A stretch of DNA of 64,000 bases from Spongilla lacustris (lineage: Eukaryota > Porifera > Demospongiae > Spongillida > Spongillidae): assembly GCA_949361645.1 (NCBI GenBank), contig OX442416.1, forward strand, positions 20,543,451 through 20,607,450, written 5' to 3'. Both the position numbers and the translations under genes were made by a program. Below, piece by piece: positions 1,455 to 37,310 of this stretch. The stretch's first letter is position 1. Each line of letters begins with the position of its first letter. Below the pieces are notes generated by a model, which ran no database searches, had not been told where the DNA came from, and saw nothing but the letters and a program-made list of their open reading frames with translations.

Positions 1455-2100
1455 GGATGGTTCTTTGGACTGGTTATGGGTAGTAGCCTACAACACGTGC
1501 GTGAATACTAGAACTGACCAGCAGTCGACAGCTACTCAACAGACAAACTTCAAGTGGCCTGCCGCAAGCACGCAATATGAATATACATATGGGGAGATAC
1601 GAACGCGTACCTGAAATAGCAGTAGCTTAAAGAAATGTCGAAATGGGATACAACAGTTTCAATAAAAGGAACTTTTCTATAGCTTGCTAAAGGTGTGCGC
1701 GAATCACGTGCAAATCACGTTGTACAGTGCAAAATATTACACTGGATTAGCAGCTGCTTAGCTCCAAAGCATACTGCGTGCGGTAATTTGCCAATTGCTG
1801 GGCTACTGTAATTATTCATTGGACATATTCAGCGGACTTAGCGGCAGGCGGGGGGGTGCAAATGCACCCAGTGCACCCTCTGTGGCTACGGGCCTGGACT
1901 GATATCCATCACCGTACCAAACCACCCAATACGTGCATAGTTCATAGCAAAAGGTCTGCATAAACATCCTTTTGGACCTGGAGGCTCCCACTATTCAGTC
2001 TCTTTTAGCACCTCATTCATCCTTTGTTACCAGGGTGGTAGCTCGTGAACCCTGACACTATACTGTCACTAGCCTTAATATATATAATAGTGCGACGGAA
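1455..2100. other. intergenic, no gene recognised
   Basis: No coding frame is supported. Near 1850-1895 a G-run is followed by a short GTGCAAATGCACCC-type palindromic segment and a GTGGCTACGGGCCTG motif of the kind found at ends of small transposable elements, but no partner terminus was found. Confidence 0.4.
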
Positions 2101-7859: not shown

Positions 7860-9690
7860 TCAGCTGCATGGTAATATGTGTAGTCCCATATATATGCTGA
7901 ACCTGAAGGGACGCTTCCTTATGGCTGGCCTGTACTCCCACTCACTGACATCCACCCCCACAGTTGATGATTGCATGCAGAGTTGAAGTTGTGCCGCTAA
8001 AGTGGTGTTCCCACAGTTAATCCTGTTAGCCCACCAACATCATATATCAGCTTCACTGATCTAATTATAATAGAACCTCTATATATAGGCTGATAGCAAC
8101 TTAGTTTTGAGGTAGTTGATGCAATCTCTGGCACTCTTCTGAACATGCATTCTTTGCGGGTAGTTGAGATCCTTCAGCCCTGTCAGGTTGAGGTTGGTAA
8201 GTTCTCCGAGTCTCCCCATTTGTGCAGGCAAGGACAGGATGTCTTTGTTATCACTCATGCAGGTCCAGTGACTGCAGGGTCACAAAGCTGCAGACACACT
8301 GGAAGACAGTACGAAATTCATTATCAGCAAGGTTGAGGGTACGAATGCATGGAGCTACGGGGTTTCCAGGAATCTCAGTCAGCTTGTTGTGGGACAGATC
8401 AAGGACGGTCAGTGTGGAGGTCCATTTAGGGATCTCGGGAAGCTCTTTCAGTTTATTACTCGATAGGCTCAGCTCTGTGAGGCTAGGTAGCTCCAGTATG
8501 TTGTGAGGGATTGTGGTAAGCTCGTTGTACTGCAGGTCTAGCTTCACTACCTGCCAAGGTGAGGAAGAGATTGAACGTGTCCAAGCGGCTCATGTGAATA
8601 CTTACCTGCCTGAGGTACAAACCCATCTCATCTGGAAGAGATCTGAACCCATTGCGAGCTAAGCGCAGTCTTTTAACCCATTGAATTTTACGAAGCCAAT
8701 CTAAATCAAGTGATACCAGACGAAGACCATGCCAGTAGACTGTGCCCTCCTTCTGATTGACATCTGTCCGCAGAAGCAGTTCTGCCCTCATGCTCGGATG
8801 GTTATAACGGTTAGCTATTTCAATGGGAACAACAGTAGATACTTTGGCGGACGTAACCATCTTTTGGACATCAGCAAACTCCTCATCGGAGCAGTCCACA
8901 CCCGGTGGGGCACCTCCCACTTCACCAAACAGCTTCAACACAAGGTTGTGGTCATCGGTCATGGCAGCCTTGACCAATAGCAGCATTGCCCGGGCTGCGT
9001 GCTGCTTCATCTGCTTGGCCAGCACCAGCGCCTCGTCAATATTTCTGGCCCCCTTTATGACCAGCTTATATTGCCTATGTTCAAGTGGCTTCCTTTCATC
9101 ACTGCTGCTCAGTATCAAAGCGCGAGGGAGACAATCTGCCTCGAGGTCAGGATTGCCGCGCAAGAGATTTTTCAATCCTGGTCCATCCTTTTCCACTTCC
9201 TTGATCCCTTCTGTTGCCGAGTTGGGGGTAAAAAAAAAAAAAGCAGAACACAATAACAATAATAATAATTTGTCCTTTTCGTACCTTCACTTTTTAAGAG
9301 ACGGACAATACCATTCTTCAAACTAAGCTCCGCCGTCTGTTTGGGTGTCTTTCCAAAGTCGTCTGTAATGCTTATATCTGCACTGTGCTGCAGTAGGACC
9401 TTAACACACTCCAAATGGCCGCTGCTGGCCGCGAGGTGCAATGGAGTGTACCCGCTGTAAGCCCGGCAATTCACATCACATCCCTTGTGTAACAAATAGT
9501 CCAAGATGGGCGCATGTGCGTTGGCTGTGGCTTCGTGAAGAGGCGTGTACCCAAATACGCCCTTGTGTCTCGCCAATTTCTTTTCCAAATCTCCTTTATC
9601 CAAACCCTTCACATATTCGACCACACTACTCAGCACTCCTTTTTGGCATAGCTTGTGCAAACGCCAGTCATCATTCAGCTGCCCAGCCAT
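7860..9690 (-). pseudogene. ankyrin-LRR-Roc protein of LRRK/ROCO type, decayed at 3' end
   Basis: Exon 1 (9690-9285) starts MAGQLNDDWRLHKLCQKG and holds about three ankyrin repeats (GYTPLHEATANAH, GYTPLHLAASSGH, GKTPKQTA). It splices at GAAG/GTACG to exon 2 (9210-8606), then across a 55-bp intron to exon 3 (8550 onward). Exon 3 carries leucine-rich repeats (VVKLDLQYNELTTIPHNI, VLDLSHNKLTEIPGN). The frame breaks at 8251: an extra CATG-like insertion after SLDL gives stops. In the shifted frame the LRR resumes (SDNKDILSLPAQMGRL) to about 8090. Further on, in the same frame, Roc-like sequence GNTTLAAQLQ and TVGVDVSEWEYRP appears (about 8000-7920), interrupted by stops and a further shift near 7895. 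ANK-LRR-Roc order is that of metazoan LRRK kinases; COR and kinase are absent. The 3' half looks dead; the 5' part may still be transcribed. Confidence 0.75.
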
Positions 9691-9868
9691 CGATTATTTC
9701 GATACAAAGAAGTACTCGTGTGACGGCAGGAGCAGCTGACACAAACACTCCTACCCACGCACACACTACATACTTCTATTCCCCTAGTTACATTTAGCAT
9801 GCTTCGTAATGTAGTATCACTGTATGCATGTCTAGGCGGCAGACAGTGTTTTATACTAATAAAAAGAA

Positions 9869-11447: not shown

Positions 11448-11969
11448 CAAAAGAACGAGAAAGCAACAACACATGAGGTTGACATAGATTGCGACGAAAT
11501 TGATGCTGGTTCTAGCTTTCATGGGAACATACCTGAAGACACAAAGAAACTAATTGCTGATATCATGCAATCTCCATGCCCCAAAATTGAAGTACAGTGC
11601 ATTGATGTGCAAAAGCAGAAAGGACAAAGTGATTGTGGGTTGTTTGCTATTTCATTTACCACCTCGCTTGCCCATCTTCAAGACCCTGCAAGCATAACCT
11701 ATGACCAGGCTAAAATGAGAACACATCTCATTCACTGCTTTGAAACACAGAGTATGACACCATTTCCTTCACGTGGGTCTCGTAGACCCAGTGATCCAAA
11801 TATCGAAGCCTACTCAATCTATTGTGTCTGCCGAATGATTAATGATGGCACTCCCATGATCCAGTGTTCCTCATGCACAGAGTGGTATCATATGGCTTGT
11901 AGTGCTGTGCCTTCACGGTTCAAGACAAACAAAAGACTACAATGGAAATGCCAGTCTTGTGCAAAGTAA
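11448..11969 (+). CDS. Ulp1-like (C48) protease C-terminal half fused to PHD finger
   Basis: The frame is open from a TAG at 11445, preceded by GATGTCATAG, which could be an acceptor. The first ATG for a stand-alone protein is 11565. The protease part has QKQKGQSDCGLFAISF, holding the Gln and the catalytic Cys of Ulp1/SENP cysteine proteases; the upstream His-Asp part is missing. A PHD finger follows: YCVCRMI, CSSC, WYHMAC and WKCQSC supply the Cys4-His-Cys3 ligands. It ends AK-stop at 11969. It lies inside an inverted-repeat transposon, so it is most likely transposon cargo with a lost upstream exon rather than a host deSUMOylase. Confidence 0.7.
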   Translation, partial: QKNEKATTHEVDIDCDEIDAGSSFHGNIPEDTKKLIADIMQSPCPKIEVQCIDVQKQKGQSDCGLFAISFTTSLAHLQDPASITYDQAKMRTHLIHCFETQSMTPFPSRGSRRPSDPNIEAYSIYCVCRMINDGTPMIQCSSCTEWYHMACSAVPSRFKTNKRLQWKCQSCAK

Positions 11970-13926: not shown

Positions 13927-14440
13927 GCTTTTTCGTAGCATTATACATGTATACAATATGTCATAATGCATATATGTATGAGTCTGTGTGGATGAATAAT
14001 ACTCTAGCGTACAGCTTTGTTATATTCAACCATCTCTTGGGTGCAAGATTGCCATGGCACCAGATAAAGGTTTAATTTTTGAGCTGATGCTGTAATGGTG
14101 TTTTAGCATATCCCAATTTAATATTTTTTAATCTACAGTTTTAGTAATAAGTGCCCATAGATTATGATATTCCATTCCATTGCTCCTTGTTCCTCATTCT
14201 AGCAGCAAAGAGCTACAGTAACTGCATAATGTAGGGTGGGAGTCCAATTTGCTGATGCTTTTAAGACCACTGTATTCAATCACAGATAGTTTATAATGAT
14301 AATTATCATATTTTACTTCAAATCCTATATACATAGAAGTACTTGAAACGTAAGAGCTTTGCTGGCAACCATGCAGATATGGTCATTATATGTGCAAGCA
14401 TTGGTATTTGTGTATGATAGTGGTTGGATTTATTTTAATA
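13927..14440. other. intergenic, no gene recognised
   Basis: AT-rich sequence between the minisatellite and the retroelement tail; no supported frame or repeat. Confidence 0.5.
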
Positions 14441-14458
14441 CAAGTATGACCCCACATC

Positions 14459-14969
14459 TGCCACCACTGTGGAGGCCATGTTTATGCCCTCACTACTCAT
14501 GGGCTCAGCTGTATCAAAAGCCAAGGTCATTTTTCAAGGCATACTGCTATCAATGCCATCATACATAGGTCACTAGCTGCAGTTAATGTACCATCAACAC
14601 TTGAGCCCACTGACCTATGCAGATCAGATGGCAAGCGACCTGACAGTTGTTCTATTGCCCCATGGAAGTCTGGCCAGTGTCTTGTTTGGGACTTTACTTG
14701 TGTTGACACCTTCGCAGCCTCATACATAGCCCGTGCCACAAGGGAAGCTAGAGCTGCTGAAGCCAGAAAGATGCTCTGCTGTCTAGATCCCACCATTGTT
14801 TCCCAGTTGCAATTGTTGATGCTCTCAGTTTGCTCACTCATATCAGCAGGCATCATAAGAGCATCACATATGACAAAACTCCCGCTTATTTCTTCTGCAG
14901 AGAGTGCCCATTGCACTACAGCACGGCAATGCTGCCTCTGTATTGGCCATGGGCACCACAAGTAGCATG
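14459..14969 (+). pseudogene. retroelement ORF tail (zinc finger plus PD-(D/E)XK-like)
   Basis: The plus strand reads CHHCGGHVYALTTHGLSC, a CxxC...HxxxxxC finger, then RHTAINAIIHRSL, then RSDGKRPDSCSIAPW, GQCLVWDFTCVDTF and SYIARATREARAAEARK. The R-PD...W-D-T pattern and the Ala-rich helix match the C-terminal tail I recognise from RT-encoding retroelements of sponges and cnidarians. After ARK the homology moves to another frame (CFPVAIVDAL) and then a third (PIALQHGNAASVLAMG), ending at 14969. No reverse transcriptase core is present: a truncated, frameshifted copy. It lies just beyond the 3' end of the ANK-Roc-Death gene, on the opposite strand. Confidence 0.7.
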
Positions 14970-15058
14970 TAATTTATATAGTGTATCCCTGTGTATTTGC
15001 TAAATAGTGTACATGTAGGTCTGTAAATTCTGCTGTAAAATTATCCATATGGTACGCA

Positions 15059-18000
15059 TTACAAAATTTTGTATCCTACTGGGTGCACGTACACAAAAGC
15101 TATAAATACTGCAACACATACAACTAAAAGGATCATACACATACTGCCTATAATGGGGGGAGGCGTGGTTTGTGCACTGTGTAGGTTTAAGTGCTTGGTA
15201 CGACTTTCCAGTGCTTCACCTGAAGTAGGTTTTTGAACTTCAACACTGGACTTAAGCAGGGTTGAATAAGGCACTGAGTCATCTATAACATTGGAGGAAA
15301 GAAATAGTCATACCAGCAACTGCATCAGACATCAATGCATGTCATCTGCAGCTACTTAAATCAATTTAGAACAACTCATATTATGGTTGGTAATGGTTAT
15401 TTCAACACGAAAACACGAAAGTGTTTTTGCTCTCTACCATACAGGAGTCCAACAGCGGACTACTGTACAGGGGTCCAATAAAGGTCTACTGTACAGGGGT
15501 CCAATAGAGGTCTACTGTACAGGGGTCCAATAGAGGTCTACTGTACCGGGGTCCAATAAAGGTCTACTGTACAGGGGTGTAAAAATCCAATAGAGATCAT
15601 TGATGTTCCCTATTGATCAAAAAAGTCATGTTTTTCCATTTTGCTGTAACACATACAGGTCAAATTGAAGGAAAGAAGGGATTATAGAAACTATGCTGTT
15701 ATTGATTTATAGTATTACTTGATTTAGTAAGTTCAACATTTCAAATGTATTAAGGTCGGTAAATATTTCTAAATTTCTAAATTGCTAAATTTCCATAAGC
15801 ACTTGTTTTTGTTTTTTTTTTAACTCAATTGATGCAACATTAAATGTATACATACTATAAATACTTGAAACTGAAGCTGGTTGATTTGAAGGTTGTGAAG
15901 AAGGAATGAATGAATCCAGACTGACACCTAATGGATGTAAAATTACTTTAAGTTAGAAACAATATTACCATAATGTTAACTAACCAAGTCTATTGGCTAG
16001 AGTCATTACACTTTCTCGTTCTGTTATCGCCAGCACCTCAACAAGCTTTCTGTAAGTGGCTTTGACATCCTGACGAAGCCATGTGCTGAACATCTCTCTC
16101 TTCGGAGCATTCACATCACCAGTGTAATTCTTTTGGATGTCTTTTAGTGTGTTATCAGGGATGCCAAGCTCAATACCAACACCATGCCAATCAGCAACTG
16201 GCAAGTTGTGGATCATCTTTAACTCAGGCCTGCTGTCTAGAAGAGCTGGGTAGGTGATAGGAGAATTTTTTTTAGATATTAACAATGCTAAAACCATCCA
16301 GCACCTTACATACATCACATAGTGCTTTTGGCATCCCATGGTAGGAAAGGAAACAGTGAGAGGAAAAGCGACAAAGGAAAGCAGAGTAGGGTAGAATATT
16401 CTATCATGCAGTAATACCAGTCCTACAAACAAAAATAAGAGTGGTTGCAATAGCTAGCTACTGTAAGGTGGCATATAGTACATGCAATTGCACTCAACAT
16501 GCACCTGCACATAACACATACAATGCATGTACATATCCATAGGTCCCTATCCTTGAAGAAAAGTTAACACCCATTCAAGTACTGAAAATAACACCCTTCA
16601 TTATGCTTTATGATTGCAGGTTACCATTNNNNNNNNNNNNNNNNNNNNNNNNNNNNNNNNNNNNNNNNNNNNNNNNNNNNNNNNNNNNNNNNNNNNNNNN
16701 NNNNNNNNNNNNNNNNNNNNNNNNNNNNNNNNNNNNNNNNNNNNNNNNNNNNNNNNNNNNNNNNNNNNNNNNNNNNNNNNNNNNNNNNNNNNNNNNNNNN
16801 NNNNNNNNNNNNNNNNNNNNNNNNNNNNTACAAAGTAAGGATGTTTATAGGCTGATAAGATAAATGATTACAAGGAATTGATAAGCTATACAATCATATG
16901 TAAAGTGACGAGACATATGCAATTGTATGTCACAGCTAAAATAAAAACAGTTTCATTGTAAGAATATGGATGATTAGGAAGCTTGTCAGTACTTTACTAT
17001 GATAGTCCTATAGAACCTCATAAAACCCGTACTACTTCACCTTGCTTTCTGAAAAATTGACTCACTACAAGCCAAACATTGAATCTAGTATAAGCATGTT
17101 ATACACATTTTCTACACTGATGTACATTTTATTTCTTTTATTTGAGTGTGGCCATCCATAAATAAGAGTTATGAGAGATGAAGCATTATTGAAGTGCGCA
17201 TGTTAGGGCTGGAGTCAGGTTGTTTGCAACATTGAACTCATATGATAAAATGTTCAGTGGCTGGGAGATGGTAGACACACAGGCCCATCAGGTTGGTAGT
17301 GACTAGTACTGATGCAATAATAACATAATAAAGATCAAGGGTAATTAACCATTGAAACCATAGCCTTCTTATCAGTGAAATTATGGCATGTACCTTGATT
17401 ATCAGGATTGCAACCTGTTGATACATTAGGACTTGTAGCTGGAACTGCAGGAGCTGAAAATGATAGGCATAGTTTAGTAGTCACAACTCACAATAATACA
17501 ATTTTCAGTTTGATTAGTAAATTATATTAAACATACATATAAAAACATCTACTCCCAGATATGCAACAAATCATGAGTACTAGAGTTAGTTATGACTAAG
17601 AAAATAGAAATTCTGAATGCAGTTTAATTCAAGTAATCAGTTACCTGACAATAGCTATGGTTATTATATGTTAAGATTATTAGTTTGCAGCTACTGGTGG
17701 CTCCATATGGGGCATTTCTTGTGTTTAGAAAATAATAATAATAATCTTTTGTGCCAAGTTTTTTGCACACAAACATGCAGATGCTTCCAAGTTGCTTGAA
17801 CAGTTGGAGGATGTGGGTGCTGTTGATCCACAGGTGGCTCTGCTCCCGCTTAGGCAATGTGGTGGCTTCTGCAAGTTGGTGCACCTTGCTAGATCTCCCT
17901 CCCCCCCCCCCCCCCCCCCCAGCCTTAATTGGTGAGGCTTTGCATTTCTTTGATGATGATGTCCATCGCTGTTTTTCTGAATGCACCATGATAGACACAC

Positions 18001-21000
18001 CCAATGTTGCTTGGCAACAGGCCCAACTCAGCCTAAGTAGAGGTGGTCTTGGGCTCCGTAGTCTTTCAGAACACAGTTCAGCTGCCTACATATCCTCTTT
18101 AAGTGCTTCTGGTGTCTGCTCATCTTCTGACAAGCACCTAGCTGAGGCCATCAAAGATTTTAATGATCTTGTCTCCTGTGACGATGCCTTAGGATCATCT
18201 TGAAGTTGTGATGCACCAAAGATCTCTATCTGGCAAAATAGAAGATCATGATTTAAGTGTGTTACTTGACAAGGTCTCCTTGCTTGACAAAGCATATCTG
18301 CTATCCATTTCTTTGTTACTGATACTCCTGTCTGCTCCTATTGCCCATCCCATCATTCCCATGCCTTGGACCATTTAGGCCACCATGCCTTAACATGCAA
18401 GCACGGAGGAGATGTGGTGTAGTGGCACAACAGGCTCAGGGACGTCCTCTTAGAATCTTGCCGATGGGCCTGTTTGGGTCCTCAAGTTCAAGCAGGAAGT
18501 GGTTTGGGGCATGAAGGACGTAGAACACGGCCAGCAGACATCCTTATCCCTCATTGGGATTTGGGCAAACCAGCAGCTCTAGATCTGACTGTCACATCTA
18601 CGCTAAATTCAAGTACGCTAATGGAAGTGGGTGTGACAAGTGAATCTGCAGCTCTTATGGGTGCTGGGGTGCAGAAGCCATGCAAACTTTATCACGCCTT
18701 GCCTCTCGCCTAGCCACCAGGGGAAATTGCTCCAAGTCCCATGCTACCTGTCTATTGTATGGCAGGCTTAGCCTGACTTTGATACGAGCCAACGCACGGG
18801 CACTCCTGTCTCGAGCAGGATCACCTGTGGAAGTTCCATAGAACTTATTGTAATATTAGTTCTTTTGTTTGTAATATATATGTGTATTACATATATTATT
18901 ATTATTATAATTATACTAGACTTAGCCCGTGAATAATCACGGAGCTGATTGTATAGAAGTCAATGTTTTTTACATACAGTAATCTACCATGGTCCCACCT
19001 ATTGTAATATACGGTTACTACGCAACCTATTAAATAGCGCGCGCAATGAAATACTTCCAGTCTGTAACGATAAATATGAACACCGGTCAATTGCCATTGG
19101 TCGATAAGTTACCCCGTGAAAAATCACGGAAGTGGTTCTATAAGAAGTGCAGAATGTTTTTTTACATACAGTAATCTACCACCTGTTGTAATATACGGTT
19201 ACTACGCAACCTATTTAATAGCCCGCGCACGCAATAATAATACTACTTCCGGTCTGTACGATAAGAATGAACACCCAGTCAATTGCCATTGGTGTTGCTA
19301 TGTACTTTTGTGTGGGAGTGGTCGTTTCTATTGGTTGCTAGGTACGCGTTGCTAGTTATGCTCAAAGCGGAGTTTATAAATAGGTGGTTACGCGGACGTA
19401 CGGTGTCGTAGTGCACAATGTCCCCCCTAAAATTTGTCCCCCCGGACGTTTTGCACTAGTGTACAATGTCCCCCCGGATATTCTGCACTAGTGTACAATG
19501 TCCCCCCGGACAATCTACACTAGGGCAAACTGTCCCCCTCCAGGGTAAAATGTCCCCCCTCATAACATTTTATTTCATCGATGACAAGTGTGCTGGGAAA
19601 CTTTTACGGCAGTACACGGGATCGCGTCGACGCCATTACTCGGTAGCTCCTAACCGTCGCCAAAGCTGCGGCATGTCGTTCCGCCGCTTGAAATGCTCAT
19701 TGTAACCAATACTGACACCACACGAACATTTAGAATTTTAGTATTAATTAAATTCCTTTTAACGAATACCCACAGCTCTTATCCTTTCCGTGTCGTCAAA
19801 GCACTCATTGAAACCAATATTCACACACATATATACACGAACATTCATTATTAAAATTCCTTAAGGAGTGGTGATTGATATATACTTCATGGCTGAAATC
19901 TCATCAGTATGAGAGATTGAAATATATATATATAATTATATATAATTATATATATAGATCAACTTGGATCATAGCCTGAAAAGTAATGTCACATCAACAC
20001 AGCGCTAGCTCCACACTGCGTGCACCGCCTGACATATCAGATTCTCAGGAAAGGCTATTCCCATCGTCAGTTCATCGGTTGCGTGATAGTACAACCGATC
20101 AGTCGGCTACCCAGACTAAAACCCATCCTAAATAGCTTAAAACCATGCATCCTGCGTCCAGGGTGGGAATAGTGTAAAAACCTTACTTGGAGGTGTTTTG
20201 TCGAATGTAGACGTATGAATTGAATTATTGCTTCAACATTCGACAGAACTAGGGTAGAACCACATGTATTCCGATCCTGGACGCACAATCCAGGCAGGAT
20301 GGTTTTTACGACGGGTCTTTGTTAAAAACCAGCCTGTTGGACGTTTATAACTGCCTTTGTTATCCTATAGGTACGACATTGCGCCCTAGTGTGGAGTGTC
20401 CAGGGGGGGACATTTTACCCTAGGGGGGGGACAGTTTGTCCTAGTGCAGAATGTCCGGGGGGACATTATGTCCGGGGGGACATTCTGCACGGGGGGACAA
20501 TCCGCCCTCCCACAACGGACGTACGGACGGACGGACGGACGTACGGACGGACGTACGGACGGACGTACGGACGTTGGAAATTATAGTATTAGATGGAACA
20601 AATAAAATTTAAAAAATTTTAGATCAAAATAGTAATATACAATACTACTGTTTTGATTGCTTAGTTGGGCATTGTAATCAAAATCTTGATTTTCACAATA
20701 TTCTTCATTTTGCTGAGAAATTAATGGTTCTTGTTCATTTTTCTGAATAATATTGTTGAACATATGTATTGTATAAAAAAGCACTACTAGTACACAGATG
20801 TAGATGAGGAAGCATTGCTCAACTGTTAGCATACTCTATTTGATTTCAGTTGCAGTGCAGATTGTTGATTAAGGATCATTGTGCTTGATCTAGCCTGACC
20901 TGGCTGCATAAATATTATAATATTGATGCCTGCCTGCTGACAAAATATATATTGTCCACATAATGCTGCTCCCTAGCCTTTATCCCCAGATGCAAGTCAT

Positions 21001-24000
21001 TAAGTGGAGATTTTTGGGTGCTGCAGGAATCAATGCAAATATGGCTGTCGTTAGTAAGAGCTCTAGCAAACTAATACGCCTACTAATGTGGTATACGTCA
21101 CATGACTTCTGCAATGTGATTGGTCGCATCAATATTCCGGCGCGAGTGCATATGAAAATGGTCCCACCATGGCATGCATCTGTGAAATGAGTCCAAGTAG
21201 CGCACATATGTACATATAGGAAAGGTGTTGGGTAGGTAAAATCATTATTGCACCTAGCTCTCGACAGCTAGTAGCTTCAAATTTTGCTTCAAATTCGATA
21301 GTAGCTTTAAATGTCATCCAAGATATGTCAAATTAGAAGAGGTGAGTGGTGAGGTAATAGTAACAGCTGCCTATCTCCCAATCAGCCACTGGGAGGGTTG
21401 GATGTCTTGATCCCAGATGGGCATGATCCATCTTGAAACATATCTAGGGAGCCTCTTCTTACATCTAAGCCAAGCTACATAGTATGGTACATGTCTTTGC
21501 ATATAGCAGATTAATGTATATAATTATGTATTAAAAGACAGAGAATTCATTGTGTATGTTTTAGCAGTTCAAAAAAGAATTAATTAATTGTGCACTGAGT
21601 ACATAACCACCTCAGTTTGATACTTGTACAGGTTCAATAAAATCAGTGGTAACATACCTATTAATGGCAAGCATATCTCAATCCCCTCAAGATTGGTGGA
21701 GCCACTGCCACACTCAAACGAAAGTTGTAGATTTTGATGCTTCATTGCCGAACAATATTGAACATGAATAACAAATCGGGGAGGGTACATGTCATGTTTC
21801 TCAAAAGTTTTTAAATCATCTTCCTTATACTTCCAGAAGTCAACATCATCTGTTTTAATCTAAGGATGAAGATATAACACATGGAATGCCGTATCAAATG
21901 CTTACCCCATTTTTGCCAGCAAGGAATGAAAGCAACCAATTTGGATTTTTCTCATCATACACGACTGTAAGTGTTTGATCAGAATTCAAAACAAATTTTT
22001 TGATCGGAAGGATTTCAAGATGACCCATTTTTTTCTTCACAGACTAAAAAGAAACAGTCATTAGAGAGGATATACATTAAGAATCATTCTTGTGATACCT
22101 CAATACATGTATCCAGAAGATAGGTCACAACAAGATGAATTTCAGACTTGCTGTAATTCACAATGGGTATACAACAATACAAATGCTTAGTAGTTTTGTC
22201 CTTATGTCCAATTAAACATGTAAAGCAAAAATGTTCTGTTTCAAATTCAGCCAGATGGCCATGGAGTGGAGTTGCCTTATCAACTCTGTGAAATGAATAA
22301 ACCTTTTTTCGGAGTTGTGCATTAAATATAATGTCTTTATTATGTAAAGCTTTTGCAAAAGATATTGGTGTATCTGCAGAGTCTAGCCCTTCACAGTCCA
22401 TAATATGTGGCAGTCTAAATTTGACACGTTTCAATAATTTCACTTCTGGATGGCAACAGATCCAGTAAATTGGAGAAATGGGTTTCACGTCGCTTGGAAA
22501 TACAAATGGCCCATGAAGCATAACCCCAATGGATACAATTAATTCTTCACTCCCTGAAATAACTCCTTGTGGAAACTCAATGGAAAATTTGTGGATGTCA
22601 TTAGCATAAATATAACCAGTACTGTCAACTGTGAAATTATCAGTTGCCTGACAGTGGACCATTACATCATCAGGAATATAACAACAGTCTGAAGGGGTGA
22701 AGAGGATATGCAAGTTAAACCAAAGGAGACTACTAAGTTACTGTATTCATATAGAGTACAAAATATTTATTATTCATGGGTGTTAAAAATGTTAATAATG
22801 GTGAGTACAACCGGCAAGGCAAGTTGAAGAAATTTTCATAGAAACTAAATTTACCAGCACAATTAATGTTAGTAATAATATCTTGCAAAAATTACAAAAG
22901 ATGCTACCACTTAACGGCATCATTCAAAGGAGGGGAGAGGGTTGGAGGCAAAGTTCCCAAAATGGATGCTGTTCGCAATGCGGCAACCCAAGTCCATCAA
23001 GAATGACATGGAGCGAGGGCCACAGACGTTCTATATATTTAGCACTATATAGAACGTCATTACAATCATGTTGCTAAATATAGGAAGAATTATTGTATAT
23101 CTCCACTGAATCCCTTGTTCCCTTCCTTTTTACACCACCATTGCCTTCAAATCCTATATACCACTACCTTTCTCAGAGAGAATGTTTTTTATATCTTTTA
23201 TACATGTAGAATAGTTTCTCTTTAGGATAATAGACCCACATATGACAATTGCAATAAATCATGTCCTATAGATTTTAACTGTTTATGATTAATCTGTATG
23301 TCAATGTTTATAAATGACTCAATACCATTTTATGTAGTCTCCACACAACATGCAGCCATTATTTTACACCAGCAGGTACAACTCTATATATTGTCATTTG
23401 GACCAACATATACTGTTATAATACGAGACTTAAAAACACAGTAGGAATGTCTTAATGTCTCTAGCTTCCCTTACACACTTTTCCACACTCACCTTTCATA
23501 CTAAGCCACGCTGTGCTGTTATGACCTATTTCTGCTAAAGAAAACACTTTTCCTTCGTCTTCTGAGCATGTCACTGATTCATATGATTCGTTTAATAGAG
23601 CTTGGTGACTAGCAACACCAGGTGTTGGACATGGGCAGACAAAGCCAAACTGTGGTTTTTCACCACAAAAAGTCTCCAATATGTTTTCTTTAATTTCAGC
23701 ACACACATGGCAAAGGCCATATGCATTGGGACTATTGATATGGACTTCAATGTAGGTCACCTTATCTACAAGGGTAACAGTACAATTTGATACAAACATC
23801 TTGATGCAGTTGGAATAAATACATGCTGGCATCAATTTTTGATTAGAAGCAATTTGCCAATTATATGATGATATTAATGATGTAATGAGAAAACAAAACT
23901 CCCCATATCTTATTTGCCTGTGCAAATAAAACACTAACAGCGGTGCAGCTGAATCTAGAGACAATGATAATTCGCTTTCAATACCATCTGTATCCAGTTT

Positions 24001-26929
24001 GTTAAGGATTGCTGGCATGAAATATTCTGTGTCATGGAAGATATCACACTTGGATATGACTTTGAGATGGAGAAGTATGGTAATTACATCATTTGGCTCA
24101 AACAAACCATGTTTATAAATGCTGCTCTGTGAATACGTGGTATCAATAACTTTCAAAAGTTGAGGTGATATGAAGCCTGAGTTGTGAGCATGTTCTACCA
24201 TGCTGCTTGTGCCACCAGAAACTGTGGCATTTACTAATAAGGTGATTATGTTGAGGAGCACTTGAGGGTTAGTGAACACGACATTTGGTAATACTGCTGG
24301 ATAGTACAGGATGACATTTCTGTCATGAAAGAAATGAAGCAAATTTTGCATATCTTCCATTTTGATGTTGAGTGTATTGGCTATTTTTTTACAAACATCT
24401 AGGTCAACTATATCTAATCCACTGTTCTTGGAGTGTATATTAATATTTTGAAGAAAATGAAGCCACCTATGTGGAATACATTTGGGTTGTAACTCATTCC
24501 TCACTTCTATAATTTTCTCCCTTATTTCTGTTAAGACCTTTTTGTCCTTTTCATTTAACTGAGGTATGTTTAGTGGAAATATTATTCTTCCCTCTGAGGA
24601 GCTAGTAAAATAAACATTGTTCAATGTGTTATGGTTTAATTGCTTTAGGAGTTGTTCGTCTTCATCTCCTGCTCCATCCAGACAAGCACTTGAAGGATCT
24701 GTGTTTAAACCAGCTATTAAAGTTCGAAATTGCCCATCTACTTCATGTTTTTGATTGTGCAGTGCACATCTCCTAAGAATTTCAGTGCATTTAAGTATAG
24801 AGGTTTCCAATCTTTCATCATTGCTTTCGCTCTCAACACTGAGGTGGTCACTAAGTCTTTCAGATAGCTTGTAAACAAACACACCTAAGTCATAACTTGA
24901 TACAAAAGCTGATAAGATATGCAGATACTGTGCTTGTCCTCCAGTGTCAATGAATTGTAACCAATTTAATGTTGCTGTTGAATTGTTTGTTAAGGAAATG
25001 TCTGCCTCGCAGTATGTGATTTGTCTTTTGAATGGTTTATAAGAAATGTGCAATGTTGACTGCTCTTCATAAACAGAAACTGGCCTTACTCCTTTGATTA
25101 ATTGTAAAGCATCTTTTAATTGTGTACCTCCATCTTTCTTCCAATATTTGACATTTCTCATGCTTGTAGAAAGGATTTGAGAAAATGTTACAAAATTTGG
25201 TGTTGGATCAGGAGAAGAATTTATTTGATCATTTAATAAAAGATTGTTGAGACATGTTTTCCCAGCTCCTGGAGGCCCAAAAAGTACTACTCTGTTGAAG
25301 TACACTGATATGAGCTCTTCTTCATTGGGTTCAGTATTTGACAATCTTGGATCATCGCTTCGATATTCACAAGTGGCTAAAGGTAAAGGTAGTTTTAGCT
25401 GAGTCATTAATCAAACCATGACTCCATTTAGATATTTAATAACTTACTGTTATTAATGAAAACTATATCTCCAGTACTCTTCTGATAAATATTCCATTGA
25501 GGCTGTTGGGAGCATTAATTATGGTATGAATACATTTGATTATTTTCTTACAATCATTGGACCAAGGTCATCACGAATAGCCTGATGACTCTACATGTAT
25601 TGATGGAATAACACAATGTTATAATTAGCAAACTAATAAGTCAACATTGATTTACCCATGCTGCTAGAATTCTGCTTTTCCTTTCCATTGGTACCCACTG
25701 GCGATGGTTTTTATCAAGCCATATTGCTATACAGTTTGGTGGTAGTGCCTATGGTTAAGACGACAAAAATAACCCAGCAATCAGATGGAAAAATGTATGA
25801 GTCTTACAGGTGTAAACTTTTCCTTCATCATGGTAGAAAAATAGTCAATTAAATTTTTGTGATTAAAAGTGACTGCTAAATCCAAAGGAGAAATTTCATA
25901 TATGTCTTTATCATTAGGATTACAGCCATGCTGCTCTATTAGATACTTTGCAATTTCAAGATTACCACCTTCACAGGCATGATGAAGAGGTATTCTGTTA
26001 TCATAATTGCGACATTGAGGGTCACATTTCTTCTCCTTAATGAGATACACCAAGACGTCTAAACTGCCTCCTAATGCAGCCAAATGGAGGACAGTATCAC
26101 CACTGATATCCTTAACATCAAGGTCACATTCATCTTGTTGTATAAGATATTTAACTATTTCACAATTTCCTTTTTTGCAGGCAACAAGCAGAGGAATTCT
26201 TTCAAATAAACCTTGACATTTTATACTGCACTTGTCTTTGCCCAGAAGGTATTCAGCAAAATCCAAATTGTCATTACCTGTTAAATTAGCCAAATGCAAT
26301 GCTGTATCTCCATTTTCATCTTTGTGAGAGAGGTCGCATCCACATTCCACCAGATACTTTACTATATCAAAATGGCCTGTTAAGCATGCAAATTGCAATG
26401 GAGTTCTGTGCCAGAGGCCTTGACTGTTTATATCACAACTTTTTTCTTCAACCAAATACTTCACTAGAACCAGACTGCCACCAAATGCAGCAATATGAAG
26501 AATACTGTTATTAAAGTTATCTGTCCATGAAAAATCAACCCCATTAATTGACTCTAAATATTGTATAATATTTAGATGCCCTTTTTCACAGGCATGAAAT
26601 GATGGTCTTCTGCCATGTTTTCCTTCACTACCTGGATCACAATTGTGCTTTGTGGTCAAGTACTTTACTAACTCTCCATTGCCACTGTATGCAGCCAAGT
26701 GAAGTGGAGAGTCACCATTAATATCGATACAGAATAAATTACACTTTTTTTGCTCTATCAAATACTGCACAACTTCAAGGTGTCCCTTCTCACAAGCACA
26801 ATGCAATGGTGTTCTTCTCATATCATTCAAAGATTCTGGATCAATATTCTGCTCAATCAGTGATTTAATTTTAGTAATGTTGCCATCACTTGCTGCACTA
26901 CAGATTTGAAGAGCATTGTTGCCTTCCAT
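15059..26929 (-). CDS. ankyrin-WW-like-Roc/COR-ZU5-UPA-Death-TM receptor-like protein
   Basis: Twelve exons join in phase at GT-AG sites: 26929-25808, 25748-25656, 25590-25552, 25502-25448, 25376-23493, 22688-22099, 22043-21906, 21859-21658, 17453-17394, 16245-15985, 15927-15865, 15282-15059 (1,576 residues). Order: 11 ankyrin repeats (1-374, e.g. RRTPLHCACEKGH); a WW-like segment (about 415-448: PQWNIYQKSTGDIVFINN then DDPRL, second Trp replaced by Tyr); a Roc-type GTPase with P-loop GPPGAGKT (470-477) and FIDTGGQ (G3, about 580); a COR-like region (LLHFFHDRNVILYYP); ZU5 (1065-1261, FSIEFPQGVISGSEEL); a UPA-like stretch (1262-1374); a Ser/Pro linker; a Death domain (1397-1481, LPVADWHGVGIELGIP); and a final membrane helix (1546-1568). 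Each module occurs in apoptosis or immune signalling proteins (DAPK1, PIDD1, UNC5, ankyrins); I infer a membrane-tethered GTPase switch with a Death effector. An upstream acceptor at 26952 gives a 5'UTR exon start at 26951; ATG 27010 is a less likely start. An extra exon could hide in the gap. Confidence 0.85.
15434..15576. repeat. 26-bp tandem repeat, about 5.5 copies
   Basis: The unit CTACTGTACAGGGGTCCAAT plus AAAGGT repeats with few changes inside intron 11 of the minus-strand ANK-Roc-Death gene. Confidence 0.9.
16629..16828. other. assembly gap, 200 N
   Basis: Exactly 200 N bases, probably a fixed-size placeholder. It falls in intron 9 of the ANK-Roc-Death gene (17393-16246). The exon phases on either side already match, so no exon is required here, but an alternative one cannot be excluded. 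Confidence 0.99.
17755..18845 (+). pseudogene. retroelement ORF C-terminal fragment, frameshifted
   Basis: Plus-strand reading gives LLRQCGGFCKLVHLARS-like sequence, a 20-bp poly-C tract (17901-17920), then LIGEALHFFDDDVHRCFSE, AWQQAQLSLSRGGLGLRSL and AEAIKDFNDLVS, stop near 18203, a deletion, then LDHLGHHALTCKHGGDVV, an internal stop, HNRLRDVLLESC and RRTRPADILIPHWDLGKPA. The H-H-x3-C finger and the R-PAD block match the C-terminal region of a reverse-transcriptase protein family common in sponge and cnidarian genomes. At least three frame breaks make it dead. It lies in intron 8 of the ANK-Roc-Death gene, on the opposite strand. Confidence 0.75.
18925..19300. repeat. two diverged tandem copies of a 187-bp unit
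   Basis: The unit starting CCGTGAATAATCACGG (about 18927) recurs from CCGTGAAAAATCACGG (about 19113). Both continue through TTACATACAGTAATCTACCA, ATATACGGTTACTACGCAAC and CAATTGCCATTGG. Each start is itself a short hairpin (CCGTGA...TCACGG). It lies in intron 8 and is probably part of a small non-autonomous element. Confidence 0.85.
19411..20507. mobile_element. inverted-repeat element with GTCCCCCC-rich arms
   Basis: The left arm (19411-19557) repeats CAATGTCCCCCCGGA, GCACTAGTG and GGGTAAAATGTCCCCCC. The right arm (about 20380-20507) has the reverse complements (GGGGGGACATTTTACCCTAG, CTAGTGCAGAATGTCCGGGG). Arms are imperfect inverted repeats about 130-150 bp long. The interior holds a further hairpin pairing GTAAAAACC (20176) with GGTTTTTAC (20303) and GTCGAATGT with ACATTCGAC. 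No coding capacity: a composite foldback or MITE-type element in intron 8. Confidence 0.65.
19920..19958. repeat. (TA)n-rich tract
   Basis: ATATATATATATAATTATAT-type low-complexity sequence inside the interior of the GTCCCCCC element. Confidence 0.9.
20516..20573. repeat. (ACGG/ACGT)n microsatellite
   Basis: Tetranucleotide array of GGAC and GTAC words next to the right arm of the inverted-repeat element. Confidence 0.95.
21658..22688 (-). other. ZU5/UPA exon cluster of the ANK-Roc-Death gene
   Basis: Exons 6-8 (22688-22099, 22043-21906, 21859-21658) are separated by introns of 55 and 46 bp with clean GT-AG ends (GAG/GTATCA, TTTTTAG/TCTG, GGG/GTAAGC, CCTTAG/ATTA, ATAG/GTATGT). They encode the ZU5 and UPA-like part and are listed so the exon boundaries can be checked independently. 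Confidence 0.8.
23015..23202. mobile_element. MITE copy (CTCTCAGAGAGAATG family), partial
   Basis: It contains TTAGCACTATATAGAACG, a GCTAAATATAGGA arm, CTTGTTCCCTTCCTTTTTAC, ACCACCATTGCCTTCAAATC and CTCAGAGAGAATGTTTTTTA, the same words and order as the full palindromic element at 62094-62383. It sits in intron 5 of the ANK-Roc-Death gene. Confidence 0.8.
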
Positions 26930-27010
26930 TTTGTGGATTGCAGAATTTTCTCTAAAGGTGTAATGAATATTGCACAATCTAAAAATGCAAATGATTAAAT
27001 CTAATTGCAT

Positions 27011-32900: not shown

Positions 32901-35900
32901 ACAATGAAGGCTGGGTGCGTATTGTTCTGACGACTGATGCGGGAAACGAACACTGAATTAATCTTCGAGTTGTCAAAGGATAAATACAGTTATATTGAGC
33001 TTGTATTGTAAACGTTATGTTACAGGTTTATCGCTCACAAAAGCACAAAACCTTGGATAATTGCTCAACATTATGGTCTCAGCCCTTTATAATTATGACT
33101 GGAGAGAATTGTACCTATGTTCACGCAGTGCTGCCCTGCTCTTTTGGGTTGCATGCATGTCAATATATATATATACATGCTTGTATCAATGCTATGTGAA
33201 CGTGAACATTTCTCATTTGTCTTTCACTAAAAAAGGTCATCAAGAGAAGCTATGTCTCTTAGAATTGTATAATTTAAACATTGGAAATTCTTCAGTTGGT
33301 GCATGACAATTGTTAATTGCTTTCCTTTATTTAATGACAGCATTACAATACAGAACTAATAGCACCCACACTTCCAACACAATCAGCAACATTAAACCCT
33401 CTATCAGCCATTATGCAACCACCTGCATGGTAGTAGCCCATGCATGCACCGGCATGCAGTGCATGCTCTGTAATTATCACTGGCTCTTCCACCATATCTT
33501 TGTGAAATGAAACTGATAGAACCTTATGGACTGTGCATGCATGTTTAGGTGTTTATAAGTGCTCCAGGTCAGTCTGGCTCTAAGACTTTAAGATCTTTCT
33601 ATAAAATCTCAAAACATTCTATATTGCAGTTCCATTATTTGCTCTGTCTTGCAGTGTAACATTCAGCCTTACACATGCACAAAATCAATTGCTGAAATGA
33701 GGATATCCTGTTCAAGCATTTCACATGAAGTCCTAGCAGTGTGATATGCATGGTTCAGTTGGCAATCCATGCAGTATAGTATATATCGTAGATCACCGGC
33801 TCTTCTCGTCATCTCCATCAAAGAACTGCTGAGTAACTATATATTCTTTTTTTCCAAAGCCATCTTCAACTCCTTGATAGTATAAGCTTTTTCAATTCTT
33901 CTCAAGTTCCATGCCTGTTAGATCATGCTTTGCTGAGAAATCTGTCTGCATGGCATGAAACATTATCCATTGAGCATCGAGTTTGACAACAGTATATCCC
34001 TTACAATGCCAGCTGCAATGAAGTATATTTGCATTACTTTTATAATCAGTACCTGAAAACAACATTTTACTGATCTATCTGGGTTCGTCATGCAGTTTCA
34101 TTGCAGCTGTCATCATTTATACATGTATTGGCAGCTTGAAGCCTATCCTATATATCCGCGATACATGTTTCGAACTGTAACTTTAGAATGACCCATGTTC
34201 TGAGTTGGTACTCAGTCAGGAATCAGGATTTAATTCATCGTAGAGCTTTGCAGGCCCACGTGCAAGTTATAGTAGGTGTATCAGTGGTATATATGCAATT
34301 CTAATTAAGAGGCTAACCTTTGGTGAAATGATCACCGCATACAAGCAACATAGACTTGGTTTTGTGCAACTGCATAGGTGGTAAGGTCTTAGCGATTATT
34401 AGTAATGCTAGCGAGCCATCGTGCACTTCGTTCAGTGGATGTGACGTCACTGTGAGAACCCTCTATATCTGATTCTAACCACACTCAAACAATTCACAAG
34501 TTTAGTGAATTATACTTTTACCTGTATTTTTCATGCAACCTATAATGTCCTATATACAAGTATTTCATAATTCTCTGCACAATGTTGGGCATTAGCTGCT
34601 AAAGTATGCCTGCTGACTTTGTCTACTCCAAATGAAGAAATGTCAACTCTAAACCGGCTAAGATTATGGCCTTGAATAATCTAAAACTTCTTGAACATGC
34701 ACAACCCTCGAGCCATTACACCAACTCAACATGGTGTGACAGTTTTCTAGAAATAGGACAATCTTTTTGAGGATAGAAGCACCATCTGCAATGATTGCAG
34801 TTTTTCAGCTGTCACGTAATATGCCAATGCATGGTTTCAGAATCACTTTCTCATGCATCACCCCAGCCCAAAACCATACAACCATCACTCCTGGTCCTAT
34901 GAATTATATTATATGTGACATACAACATAGATCATATGTGCCTAAAGTGCATGAGGTTTATATACAAACAGAACAGTGAACTTTCTTTGTACCCTGTAGA
35001 TGTTTTTATTTATATTAAAGCATGTATAATATTTTCTTGTAATATTCTGCATACACATTCATGTATGCCGTACACACAGGTGCAACACTGTTGCTTGTAC
35101 TGCTTGCATTCAAGCCAGCCAGCAGTCAGGTCTGCAACTACCAAATGAGGGACTGCATTTGTAACAGCAGCCAGAGTGTGTGCAATTTCAATATAGTGAT
35201 AGAAGCCTTTCCAACCTTTACAAGCTATGAATTGAACAGTGTGCCTGGAATGGCTGGCCTTCAACGTGGGGCATTAGGTGGAATCTACTACTTCAACACA
35301 ACAAGTGGATCACTTGTTGCCAATAACATTACGTTGGGAGGTCGTGGGAGATGCTCTAACATCTCAAACGAGGCATTCGGAAACACAAATTGCAGCATTC
35401 CAATGACAGTTGATGGAAAGACATATCGCACATTCCTTGCTGTGAATGGCCTCATCCCCGGTCCTAACCTCATTGTGAATTATGACCAAACCATAGTTGT
35501 GAATGTCATAAATGCCCTACACAGTGACAGTATCTCCATCCATTGGCATGGGATGCATCAGCACAACACCCCGTGGATGGATGGTGTGGCTGGGATCTCA
35601 CACTGTCCCATCATTCCAGGTGCAAGCTTCACCTACATCTTCAAGGCCAATCCATCAGGCACATTCTGGTACCACTCTCACAGTGGTGCACAATGAACGG
35701 AAGGTATTTTTGGAGCCCTCATTGTTAAGGAGATCAATAATGTACCACAACTGACCCTGAGTTCAACTGAGTACATTTTGTCTTTGCTGGACTGGCAACT
35801 GGAGTCATCAGATGTTCTATTTACCCGACTCAGGAGTAAAATTGGATTTTTTCCCTTAGTGCCGTATGGAGTGGTTCCAACTGGAGGGACAAACTGGGTG

Positions 35901-37310
35901 AATAATGGAGCAGACAATACCCTTGTTGGGACCATACCATACTGGTCAGGTTTAATAAATGGATTAGGTCGACACCCTGCTGTCCCATATGCCACTTCAA
36001 GGTTGAGCATATTCAATGTTGCATACAGGGATGATACCATGGCTAACCCAGCTTACTATCGATTCAGGCTAATAGGGGCACAAAGCCTATATGCGTACAG
36101 GTTCTCTATCTCAGGTCACAGCCTAAAGTTGATTGCAACTGATGGTTTCTTGATTCAACCGGTGGATGTTGATTACATCATCATCCATGGAGGAGAACGC
36201 TATGACTTTGCCTTGAGACCTAAAAATGTGACCGAAGCAAATGGCACAACAGACTACCTGATACTAGCTGAGACATTGGAGGTTGACTTGACTGCGCCTG
36301 GACCTCCCTATCCCTCTTTTAACCACATTGCAGAGGCTATACTTCATTATGGTGATAACACAAACCAGCCCAATCCAGCCAGTTACAACCAAACCAATGC
36401 AGCATACAACCTAGGGTGTGGAAAAGGTGGCCAGCGTAACTGTGTGGCTATAAACTGTTTATTTCAGAACTACCATCCAAGCTATAACATCAGCTGTATG
36501 TCTCTTACAGCTTTAAAGCTTCTTTATCCAACTCCAATGAATGATATGCCAGGAATACCAACATTAGAGAATACTTTTTTCCTGAACTTTGGATTTGAAG
36601 GTGTGGGAAGTGCTGTCAATGGTAGAAATTTTGTTCCTCCACCGTTTCCTCTGCAAAGCCAACAGCCTGGGTCATCTCTACCAGGTGGAACCTTCTGCCA
36701 GAATGGATATGTAGACTGCTCCCAAACATGTTTCTGCACCAATATTGTGAATATTACAAGTCCCGACTCCACCATAGAGATGGTATTTAGTTCTGTCGGG
36801 AAGGGGTACAACTTTGCACATCCTATTCATCTTCATGGCCACAGTTTTCACGTTGCTGGCATTTTCTATGGCACCTACAATCAAACTACAGGGTACGTAG
36901 TTATGAATAACACTGATGTTACATGTGGCTCAGATTCCCACTGCACAAATCCTAAATGAAGTTCAACGTACACACAATCAACTATCACTGTTGACAACAG
37001 CACTATTAGAAAGGACACCATTGTTGTGCCTGCCGGTGGTTATGTGCGGGTACGATTTGTTGCTAATAACCCCGGCTACTGGTTTCTGCACTGCCACCTA
37101 GAACCTCACCAAGTGGAAGGGATGTCCATACTCATTAATGAGCTCGAAATCCGACAAAACAGTCCTCCAGATGAGCTCACTCAAAGTCAAAAATGTGGAA
37201 ACTTCAAATGGAGTGTAGCCTCATTTAATACAAAAGTTAATCAGGCTGGACTGATGTCAGTTTCAAATGTGTGCATTGTAGCTATGGTGCTGTTACAGCT
37301 GATTCTGTAG
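29971..37310 (+). pseudogene. multicopper oxidase copy 1, two nonsense codons
   Basis: Exon 1 is 13 bp (29971-29983, ATGGCGCTGTTAC, donor GTAAGTG); exon 2 is 35080-37310 after a CACACAG acceptor. Joined, they start MALLRATLLLVLLAFKPASS, a signal peptide, then [10 protein letters not shown]. The frame would run 747 residues with all four copper motifs ([38 protein letters not shown]) and ends in a hydrophobic tail ([13 protein letters not shown]) that could be a GPI or membrane signal. TGA interrupts codon 210 (35694-35696), where copy 2 has CGA, directly after HSHSGAQ, and codon 631 (36957-36959), where copy 2 has TGG. There are no frameshifts. The locus looks recently silenced, unless stops are read through or are assembly errors. 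Confidence 0.85.
32036..32889 (+). mobile_element. hAT transposon, 854 bp, perfect 8-bp TSD
   Basis: The ends CAGTGATGCCGCGGCCAGC and GCTGGCCGCGGCATCACTG are perfect inverted repeats flanked by CCTATAAG on both sides (32028-32035 and 32890-32897). This is diagnostic of hAT. Sub-terminal GACCGTCCGTGACCG-type repeats occupy both ends. The interior reads CERVFSQLRLIV at about 32517-32552, a relic of the hAT dimerisation domain. Non-autonomous. It lies in intron 1 of multicopper oxidase copy 1. Confidence 0.93.

Follow-up and report, generated by a model that had tools for sequence, protein, structure and literature searches.

Introduction

In PMC6337361 the Roco proteins are divided into three groups, of which the DAPK1 group, described there as animal-only, has a Death domain and carries its kinase before Roc. 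For NLRP1 and CARD8, PMC7794386 describes how the halves of the cut FIIND remain associated up to the degradation of the N-terminal one, after which the freed UPA aids oligomerisation of the death-fold domain. Here we describe a gene of the sponge Spongilla lacustris in which both kinds of module appear to meet. It lies in a stretch of 64,000 nucleotides, hereafter the window (C2:20543451-20607450, contig OX442416.1, of a 248.6-Mb genome; L-numbers denote loci fetched from the same genome). We read it as one gene encoding a tail-anchored Roco death receptor, composed of ankyrin repeats, a Roc-COR GTPase tandem, one FIIND-like ZU5-(UPA) module, a Death domain and a C-terminal helix, and consider this reading probable.

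DAPK1 has ankyrin repeats before Roc-COR, as does the window gene, and Roc-COR and Death stand in the same order in both. The window gene differs in that ZU5-UPA lies between COR and Death, in its C-terminal membrane helix, and in that Pfam found no kinase domain in the 1,579-residue model, small upstream exons lying outside the search. With NLRP1 and CARD8 it shares a sensor, joined in NLRP1 to an NTPase part, a ZU5-UPA, a short linker (20 residues, compared with the 25 given for NLRP1 in PMC7794386) and a death-fold domain. However, it has Roc in place of NACHT, Death in place of CARD, HF-C in place of SF/S, a membrane tail and a UPA that is putative. PIDD1 likewise combines a repeat sensor, ZU5, (UPA) and Death, with H-F before the scissile position as reported in PMC3210808, but has leucine-rich repeats (LRR) where the window gene has ankyrin repeats and Roc-COR, two ZU5 instead of one, Ser instead of Cys, and no such membrane tail. 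A first-pass annotation of the window, made from the letters alone, had drawn the comparison with DAPK1 and PIDD, which is apt; its suggestion of an NLR-like sensor has to be dropped, Pfam finding neither NACHT nor LRR in the model. UNC5CL and UNC5 have a membrane-tethered ZU5-UPA-Death, as the window gene appears to, their membrane segment being N-terminal, and differ in having neither ankyrin repeats nor Roc-COR. Nor is the order of the ankyrins ANK1-3 (ANK-ZU5-ZU5-UPA-Death, no Roc-COR) that of the window gene, with its single ZU5 exon and its Roc-COR.

Shuffling of ZU5 into immunity proteins is already known, since PMC8195603 describes animal TRADD-N proteins that carry a fused FIIND or UPA-ZU5, with autoproteolysis predicted. 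The window gene shares this ZU5/FIIND shuffling and has Roc-COR where those proteins have TRADD-N. Bacterial AP-GTPase/COR conflict proteins, described in the same source, have a Roc-COR switch flanked by a repeat sensor and an effector that varies; their sensors are LRR and their effectors are others. An amphioxus LRR-ZU5-kinase is listed in PMC9573974, and the passages of PMC11508797 that concern FIIND name it for human and fish NLRPs only. Among the literature matches listed, none describes a protein in which Roc-COR is joined to ZU5. We class the window gene as a variant of the Roco death proteins and not as an NLR; nor is it strictly a FIIND member, given the missing serine and the unproven UPA.

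Exon chain of the window gene

Rebuilt independently, the gene runs on the minus strand from 26929 to 15059 in 12 exons, which encode 1,579 residues and a stop (1,580 codons). All 11 introns are GT-AG and the phase matches at each junction. In these respects the chain is that of the first-pass annotation, which had given it 1,577 codons and a start at 26951; the start is now the ATG at 26929. The difference in codon number means that a few splice choices differ, and for the small exons 2-4 more than one choice is possible. We presume that exons 1-12 are joined on a single transcript.

Exon 1 (25808..26929; residues 1-374) encodes about 11 ankyrin repeats, counted with a simple pattern, and matches Pfam Ank_2 with 213 bits, upholding the ankyrin call of the first-pass annotation; ankyrin-repeat proteins also made up the 60 matches listed when the whole model was searched against the PDB as a single sequence. 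It is followed by exon 2 (25656..25748; residues 375-405), exon 3 (25552..25590; residues 406-418), which reads HxxIxxDLGPMI, and exon 4 (25448..25502), which reads PxWxxFQKxxGDIVFIN. Exon 2 looks WW-like by eye and has no Pfam match; the WW-like domain called earlier was rejected, as Pfam found no WW in the window model or in five paralogue stretches.

Each of the 12 exons is matched at other places in the genome, and to judge from these comparisons the chain is beyond chance. The genome searches were scored for 70 of 281 Roc candidates, 150 of 151 Death-exon candidates, all 41 ZU5-UPA candidates and 150 of 405 Pfam Death candidates. Counterparts of exon 1 stand 5' of Roc in L010-L016, those of exon 2 were read by eye in L010-L013 and L015, those of exon 3 occur in L010-L012, L016, L019 and L020, and those of exon 4 in 11 loci, L010-L020 (E <= 0.05). 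The small exons stand 5' of Roc in these paralogues in the same order as in the window. Exon 5 has counterparts at 69 other places. Exons 6, 7 and 8 are consecutive in 7/7 close paralogues, at 63-75% identity, L061 having a disrupted exon 8 frame. In L049, exon 9 is found upstream of Death together with its splice sites, the frame of that Death being disrupted, and L044 has a coding match to exon 9, likewise upstream of Death. Exon 10 has counterparts at 52 other places. Besides the near-identical copy described below, exon 11 is found in L019/L042, L020/L041 and L045, and exon 12 partially in L042 and in broken form in L044 and at C2:20404204. Ratios of non-synonymous to synonymous substitution (dN/dS), calculated by the Nei-Gojobori method with a script of our own, stayed below 1: 7 pairs of the ZU5 exon gave 0.30-0.51, 5 pairs of Death 0.33-0.49 and 3 pairs of exon 8 0.29-0.56.

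The phases allow the gene to be divided into blocks. The COR exon ends in a GTGAGT donor in phase 1, and the donor-like sites at this exon end are in phase 1 in 13/13 cases (the window and 10 of 11 paralogues, the match in L017 being unreliable). ZU5-UPA (exons 6-8), exon 9 and Death each form a phase 1-1 block, as exon shuffling requires, and the phases would also permit an isoform in which COR is spliced to Death with ZU5 skipped. Another public contig yields a 99%-identical protein that retains the Roc-COR exon, reads through the donor and diverges five residues past it, after LSMKGECGK. This protein is an unspliced reading and fits an intron at this place, without fixing the position of the donor. 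The paralogue family, sister loci without ZU5, the conserved HF-C motif and a run of 200 N inside the gene, all taken up below, had gone unmentioned in the first-pass annotation.

Roc-COR tandem and its family

Exon 5 (23493..25376; residues 437-1064) encodes the Roc-COR GTPase tandem, with a P-loop GPPGAGKT (25255..25278; residues 470-477), a G3 motif DTGGQ (24934..24948; residues 580-584) and a G4-like GLNTD (24697..24711; residues 659-663). Taken singly by Pfam, the Roc and COR of the first-pass annotation both stay under the cut-offs (Roc 19.5 bits, cut-off 27; COR-A 21.5 bits, cut-off 35.3). However, LRRK2 in the PDB is matched at E 1e-11 by a profile that combines exon 5 with 19 relatives from the databases. 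An AlphaFold2 model of the exon reached a predicted local distance difference test score (pLDDT) of 72 and a predicted template-modelling score (pTM) of 0.77. When this model was searched with Foldseek, the best 17 matches were all Roco structures, the best being LRRK2 (2.5e-16, query TM-score 0.53); the COR of C. tepidum was matched with a target TM-score of 0.72. By profile and predicted fold the tandem is clear, despite the sub-cut-off Pfam scores. Three P-loop columns are at least 90% conserved in an alignment of relatives (A5), and the G4 motif reads GLNTD in the window gene versus mostly THxD in the relatives.

Amphimedon queenslandica supplied the sole named relative of the Roc-COR part. 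Within the Spongilla genome, relatives of this exon were found at 12 places with 34-41% identity and at 57 with about 31-35%, many of them arrayed, so that by sequence similarity the gene is a member of a very large Roc-COR expansion with at least 70 places. Clusters of the exon at about 31-35% identity lie at C1:30.3-30.5, C3:15.9-17.3, C9:0.08-0.16 and C5:10.4-10.7 Mb.

The surroundings of 29 other fetched Roc loci were surveyed for Death within a 1.5-kb flank, using a Death profile built partly from such loci. A Death exon stands 3' of Roc on the same strand, directly after COR, in 11/29 (E < 1e-9); of the remaining loci, 2/29 gave a weak Death match and 16/29 none, and one has ZU5 in its flank. 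A candidate phase-1 acceptor is present there in 7/11 close paralogues. The frequent form of the family appears to be Roc-COR-Death, with ankyrin repeats in front in the close group, that is, DAPK1 minus the kinase. The window gene probably belongs to this large (ANK-)Roc-COR-Death family, with a phase 1-1 ZU5-UPA cassette between COR and Death. Its Death domain is 79% identical to those beside L019 and L020, whose Roc is 35% identical; the signalling end may have been conserved or exchanged while the switch diverged, as expected of a receptor family.

ZU5 exon and putative UPA

Exon 6 (22099..22688; residues 1065-1261) carries ZU5 and the start of the next domain, and exons 7 (21906..22043) and 8 (21658..21859) hold the first and second parts of a putative UPA. 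The first-pass annotation had staked its proposal on hidden Markov model calls of ZU5 and Death. Taken literally, the ZU5 call fails on the window exon, which has no Pfam match, whereas Death passes. Relatives of exon 6 with 31-34% identity nevertheless match Pfam ZU5 with 45-48 bits (C1:30.32, C1:30.49 and C4:0.389 Mb), and a further such relative at C7:8.63 Mb does so with 34 bits. An alignment of 16 of the 21 ZU5 sequences (A1; L068 and L076-L079 left out) contains 3/16 members that match Pfam ZU5, the best at 1.5e-11, and a profile made from it matches the ZU5 structure of ZO-1 (1.1e-5). At the level of sequence, paralogues and profile together establish ZU5 in exon 6. A single-sequence fold of exon 6 (pLDDT 35.8) was discarded.

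The UPA called by the first-pass annotation is putative in exons 7-8, where place and length fit it. Exon pairs from 7 of 8 loci were aligned (A4; L061, with its broken exon 8 frame, left out). Across the genome Pfam gave no UPA match, and the control matched nowhere either; in the window Pfam FIIND has no match. Searched against the PDB, the putative UPA exons gave weak SH3 matches only, the best being GRB2 at E 0.3, and these were taken as chance. A combination of ZU5, SH3 and Death occurs in MACC1 and SH3BP4.

No database homologue of the ZU5-to-Death part was found, and ZU5 was not seen in any of the 21 database proteins that were retrieved (16 scanned with Pfam, 5 checked by a precomputed column). 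In the genome itself, ZU5-UPA is followed by Death at L060 (E 6e-8), at L062 (E 2e-3; Pfam Death 48.7 bits) and at C25:5589902/5587341. A second locus on the contig of the window has, on one strand, ZU5 at C2:20.7807 Mb, weak matches to exons 7 and 8 and, 6-9 kb downstream of ZU5, exon 9 at about 20.7874 Mb, Death at 20.7887 Mb and a broken tail. At C4:390419/389048 and C1:30324228/30322310 a Roc on the strand of ZU5 precedes it by 0.8 and 1.3 kb.

Death domain and membrane tail

Exon 8 is separated from exon 9 by an intron of 4,204 nt (17454..21657), the weak link of the gene model, which contains at least one interspersed repeat that by eye is also present in L084. Exon 9 (17394..17453) encodes the 20-residue linker. 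Inside intron 9 there is a run of exactly 200 N (16629..16828), most likely an assembly gap. Exon 10 (15985..16245) encodes the Death domain, which matches Pfam over residues 1408-1476 with 28.8 bits (cut-off 22.6), in line with the first-pass annotation. A linker in exon 11 (15856..15927) leads to exon 12 (15059..15282), which holds the tail, the transmembrane helix and the stop.

The helix (15086..15142; residues 1553-1571) ends 8 residues before the C-terminus. With a mean hydropathy of 3.08 over 19 residues, where the best stretch outside the tail reaches 1.75, it strongly bears out the membrane helix proposed earlier. From hydropathy the product is predicted to be a tail-anchored protein, with a single C-terminal transmembrane helix and no N-terminal signal. 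The block from Death to tail is present twice on the contig in near-identical form, at 14428-16628 of the window and, 86 kb apart, at C2:20471389-20473534. The copies differ at 25/1,583 non-coding positions (1.6%) and 2/557 coding positions, and the duplicate may be the second haplotype placed apart.

An HF-C motif at the place of the PIDD autocleavage site

An HFC motif in exon 6 (22225..22233; residues 1217-1219) aligns with the HF/S autocleavage site of PIDD. PMC3210808 gives this site as HF/S in PIDD and SF/S in CARD8 and NLRP1, reports that replacing Ser by Ala abolishes cleavage of CARD8 and NLRP1, and states that Ser, Thr or Cys can initiate the acyl shift of such autoproteolysis. The canonical HF/S or SF/S is not in the window gene, where HF-C takes its place. 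Of 21 family ZU5 sequences, 17 have HFC and 20 have FC at the place where PIDD is cleaved. Two ZU5 exons from outside the family, L087 with HFS and L088 with SFS, align to the same columns. By analogy, the FIIND-like switch may self-cleave through the cysteine at HF-C.

The two outside exons are of note in their own right. L087 (C14:8301350-8302000, minus strand) has the canonical HFS and, by eye, a second ZU5 that starts after it, as in PIDD. L088 (C16:717300-717900, plus strand), with SFS, scores 19.6 bits with Pfam FIIND (cut-off 25.8) and is the only one of the two tested with such a sub-cut-off match. These sequences suggest that PIDD-like and FIIND-like genes are present in the genome.

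Other genes in the window

Two closely similar multicopper-oxidase (laccase-like) genes lie in tandem on the plus strand at 35043-36959 and 44971-47340. In the latter, one frame covers all three Cu-oxidase Pfam domains; for the former, the frame scanned was 35043-35696. A frame on the minus strand at 8483-9693 encodes ankyrin repeats followed by a stretch that is leucine-rich by eye and has no Pfam match, possibly an ANK/LRR gene. On the plus strand, a P-loop GTPase-like frame at 2056-3863 (weak Pfam matches to MMR_HSR1, dynamin and AIG1, among others) runs into long charged repeats, and a PHD finger frame at 11448-11969 is accompanied by a part that looks like a ULP1 protease by eye, as in some transposons.

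Discussion

Several observations weigh against reading the locus as one tail-anchored Roco death receptor. Searched against the PDB as single sequences, exon 5 and exons 6-8 gave nothing significant and Death gave no significant match (best PIDD, E 0.19). UPA was not detected by Pfam or PDB searches of the window model and the family, and 18/29 other Roc loci, two of them with a weak match, have no strong Death match in their flank. The 4.2-kb intron and the 200 N together separate ZU5-UPA from Death. The exons might accordingly be split between two genes, an ANK-Roc-COR gene ending at about 23461 (or with another 3' end) and a separate ZU5-UPA-Death gene with the transmembrane helix. The frame of exon 5 does run on to a stop at 23461, the long intron suits such a division, and in 4/7 close ZU5-UPA paralogues examined no Roc was found in the 4-7 kb upstream, where the sole partner was one Death exon, in L084; at the C1:30.32 Mb paralogue no convincing donor for a Roc-to-ZU5 splice was found. 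However, the COR exon of the window ends in a phase-1 GTGAGT donor, the donor-like sites of the paralogues are all in phase 1, the ZU5 exon is entered in phase 1 and therefore requires a preceding exon, and Roc does precede ZU5 at the C4 and C1 loci. We regard two genes as unlikely. That the Death-tail exons were attached to the gene by an assembly error seems to us more improbable still. The 200-N run at 16629-16828 speaks for it, as does the block copy, diverged by 1.6% in its non-coding part, that lies 86 kb away at C2:20.47 Mb beside a 200-N run of its own and may therefore be a misplaced haplotig; yet exon 9 lies on the ankyrin side of the 200 N and precedes a related Death in both L044 and L049, the locus at C2:20.78 Mb likewise runs from ZU5 through exon 9 to Death, and strand and phase fit.

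A different objection leaves the gene whole and concerns what its ZU5 does. Many ZU5 proteins do not cleave, and that of the window gene might, like those of ankyrins and UNC5, act as a scaffold that stays uncut, with C1219, C1222 and C1236 serving as structural or metal-binding residues. Cysteines at +3 and +17 of HFC are invariant in 21/21 sequences and the site cysteine is present in 20/21, so that all three, the HFC cysteine included, may be structural; L071 has QSS at the HFC position. These points, too, count against a cleaving switch, and we give the scaffold nearly an even chance. Against it stand the Phe before the site cysteine, equally conserved at 20/21, and the HFS and SFS of the two non-family ZU5 exons, which share the columns; moreover, cysteine is a competent nucleophile in related autoproteolysis, as stated in PMC3210808. 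The boldest extension, in which the whole early-animal ZU5 family, the window Roco receptor included, would self-cleave by Cys (HF/C) and free UPA-Death as a GTPase-gated, membrane-tethered counterpart of NLRP1/CARD8, is put forward tentatively, as a possibility to which we assign clearly less than an even chance.

If the locus does encode a single tail-anchored Roco death receptor, a course of activation can be proposed. Binding of a ligand, or of a self protein that has been modified, to the ankyrin repeats would shift the GTP state or the dimerisation of Roc-COR. ZU5 would keep UPA-Death silent until self-cleavage or rearrangement at HF-C allowed the N-terminal part to be removed, and the membrane-tethered UPA-Death would then cluster and recruit death-domain partners. 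By analogy with NLRP1 and CARD8, the half made of ankyrin repeats and Roc-COR would be sensor and gate, and the membrane-bound UPA-Death the released effector.

If this is true, a single sponge polypeptide would unite two cell-death switches that named vertebrate proteins carry separately, the Roco GTPase known from DAPK1 and the autoprocessing ZU5-UPA of PIDD and NLRP1. How FIIND-type activation arose, and by what chemistry it works, could be tested through the HF-C site with one protein and a single point mutation, and a FIIND-type switch would be found on a Roco GTPase, outside the NLRs.

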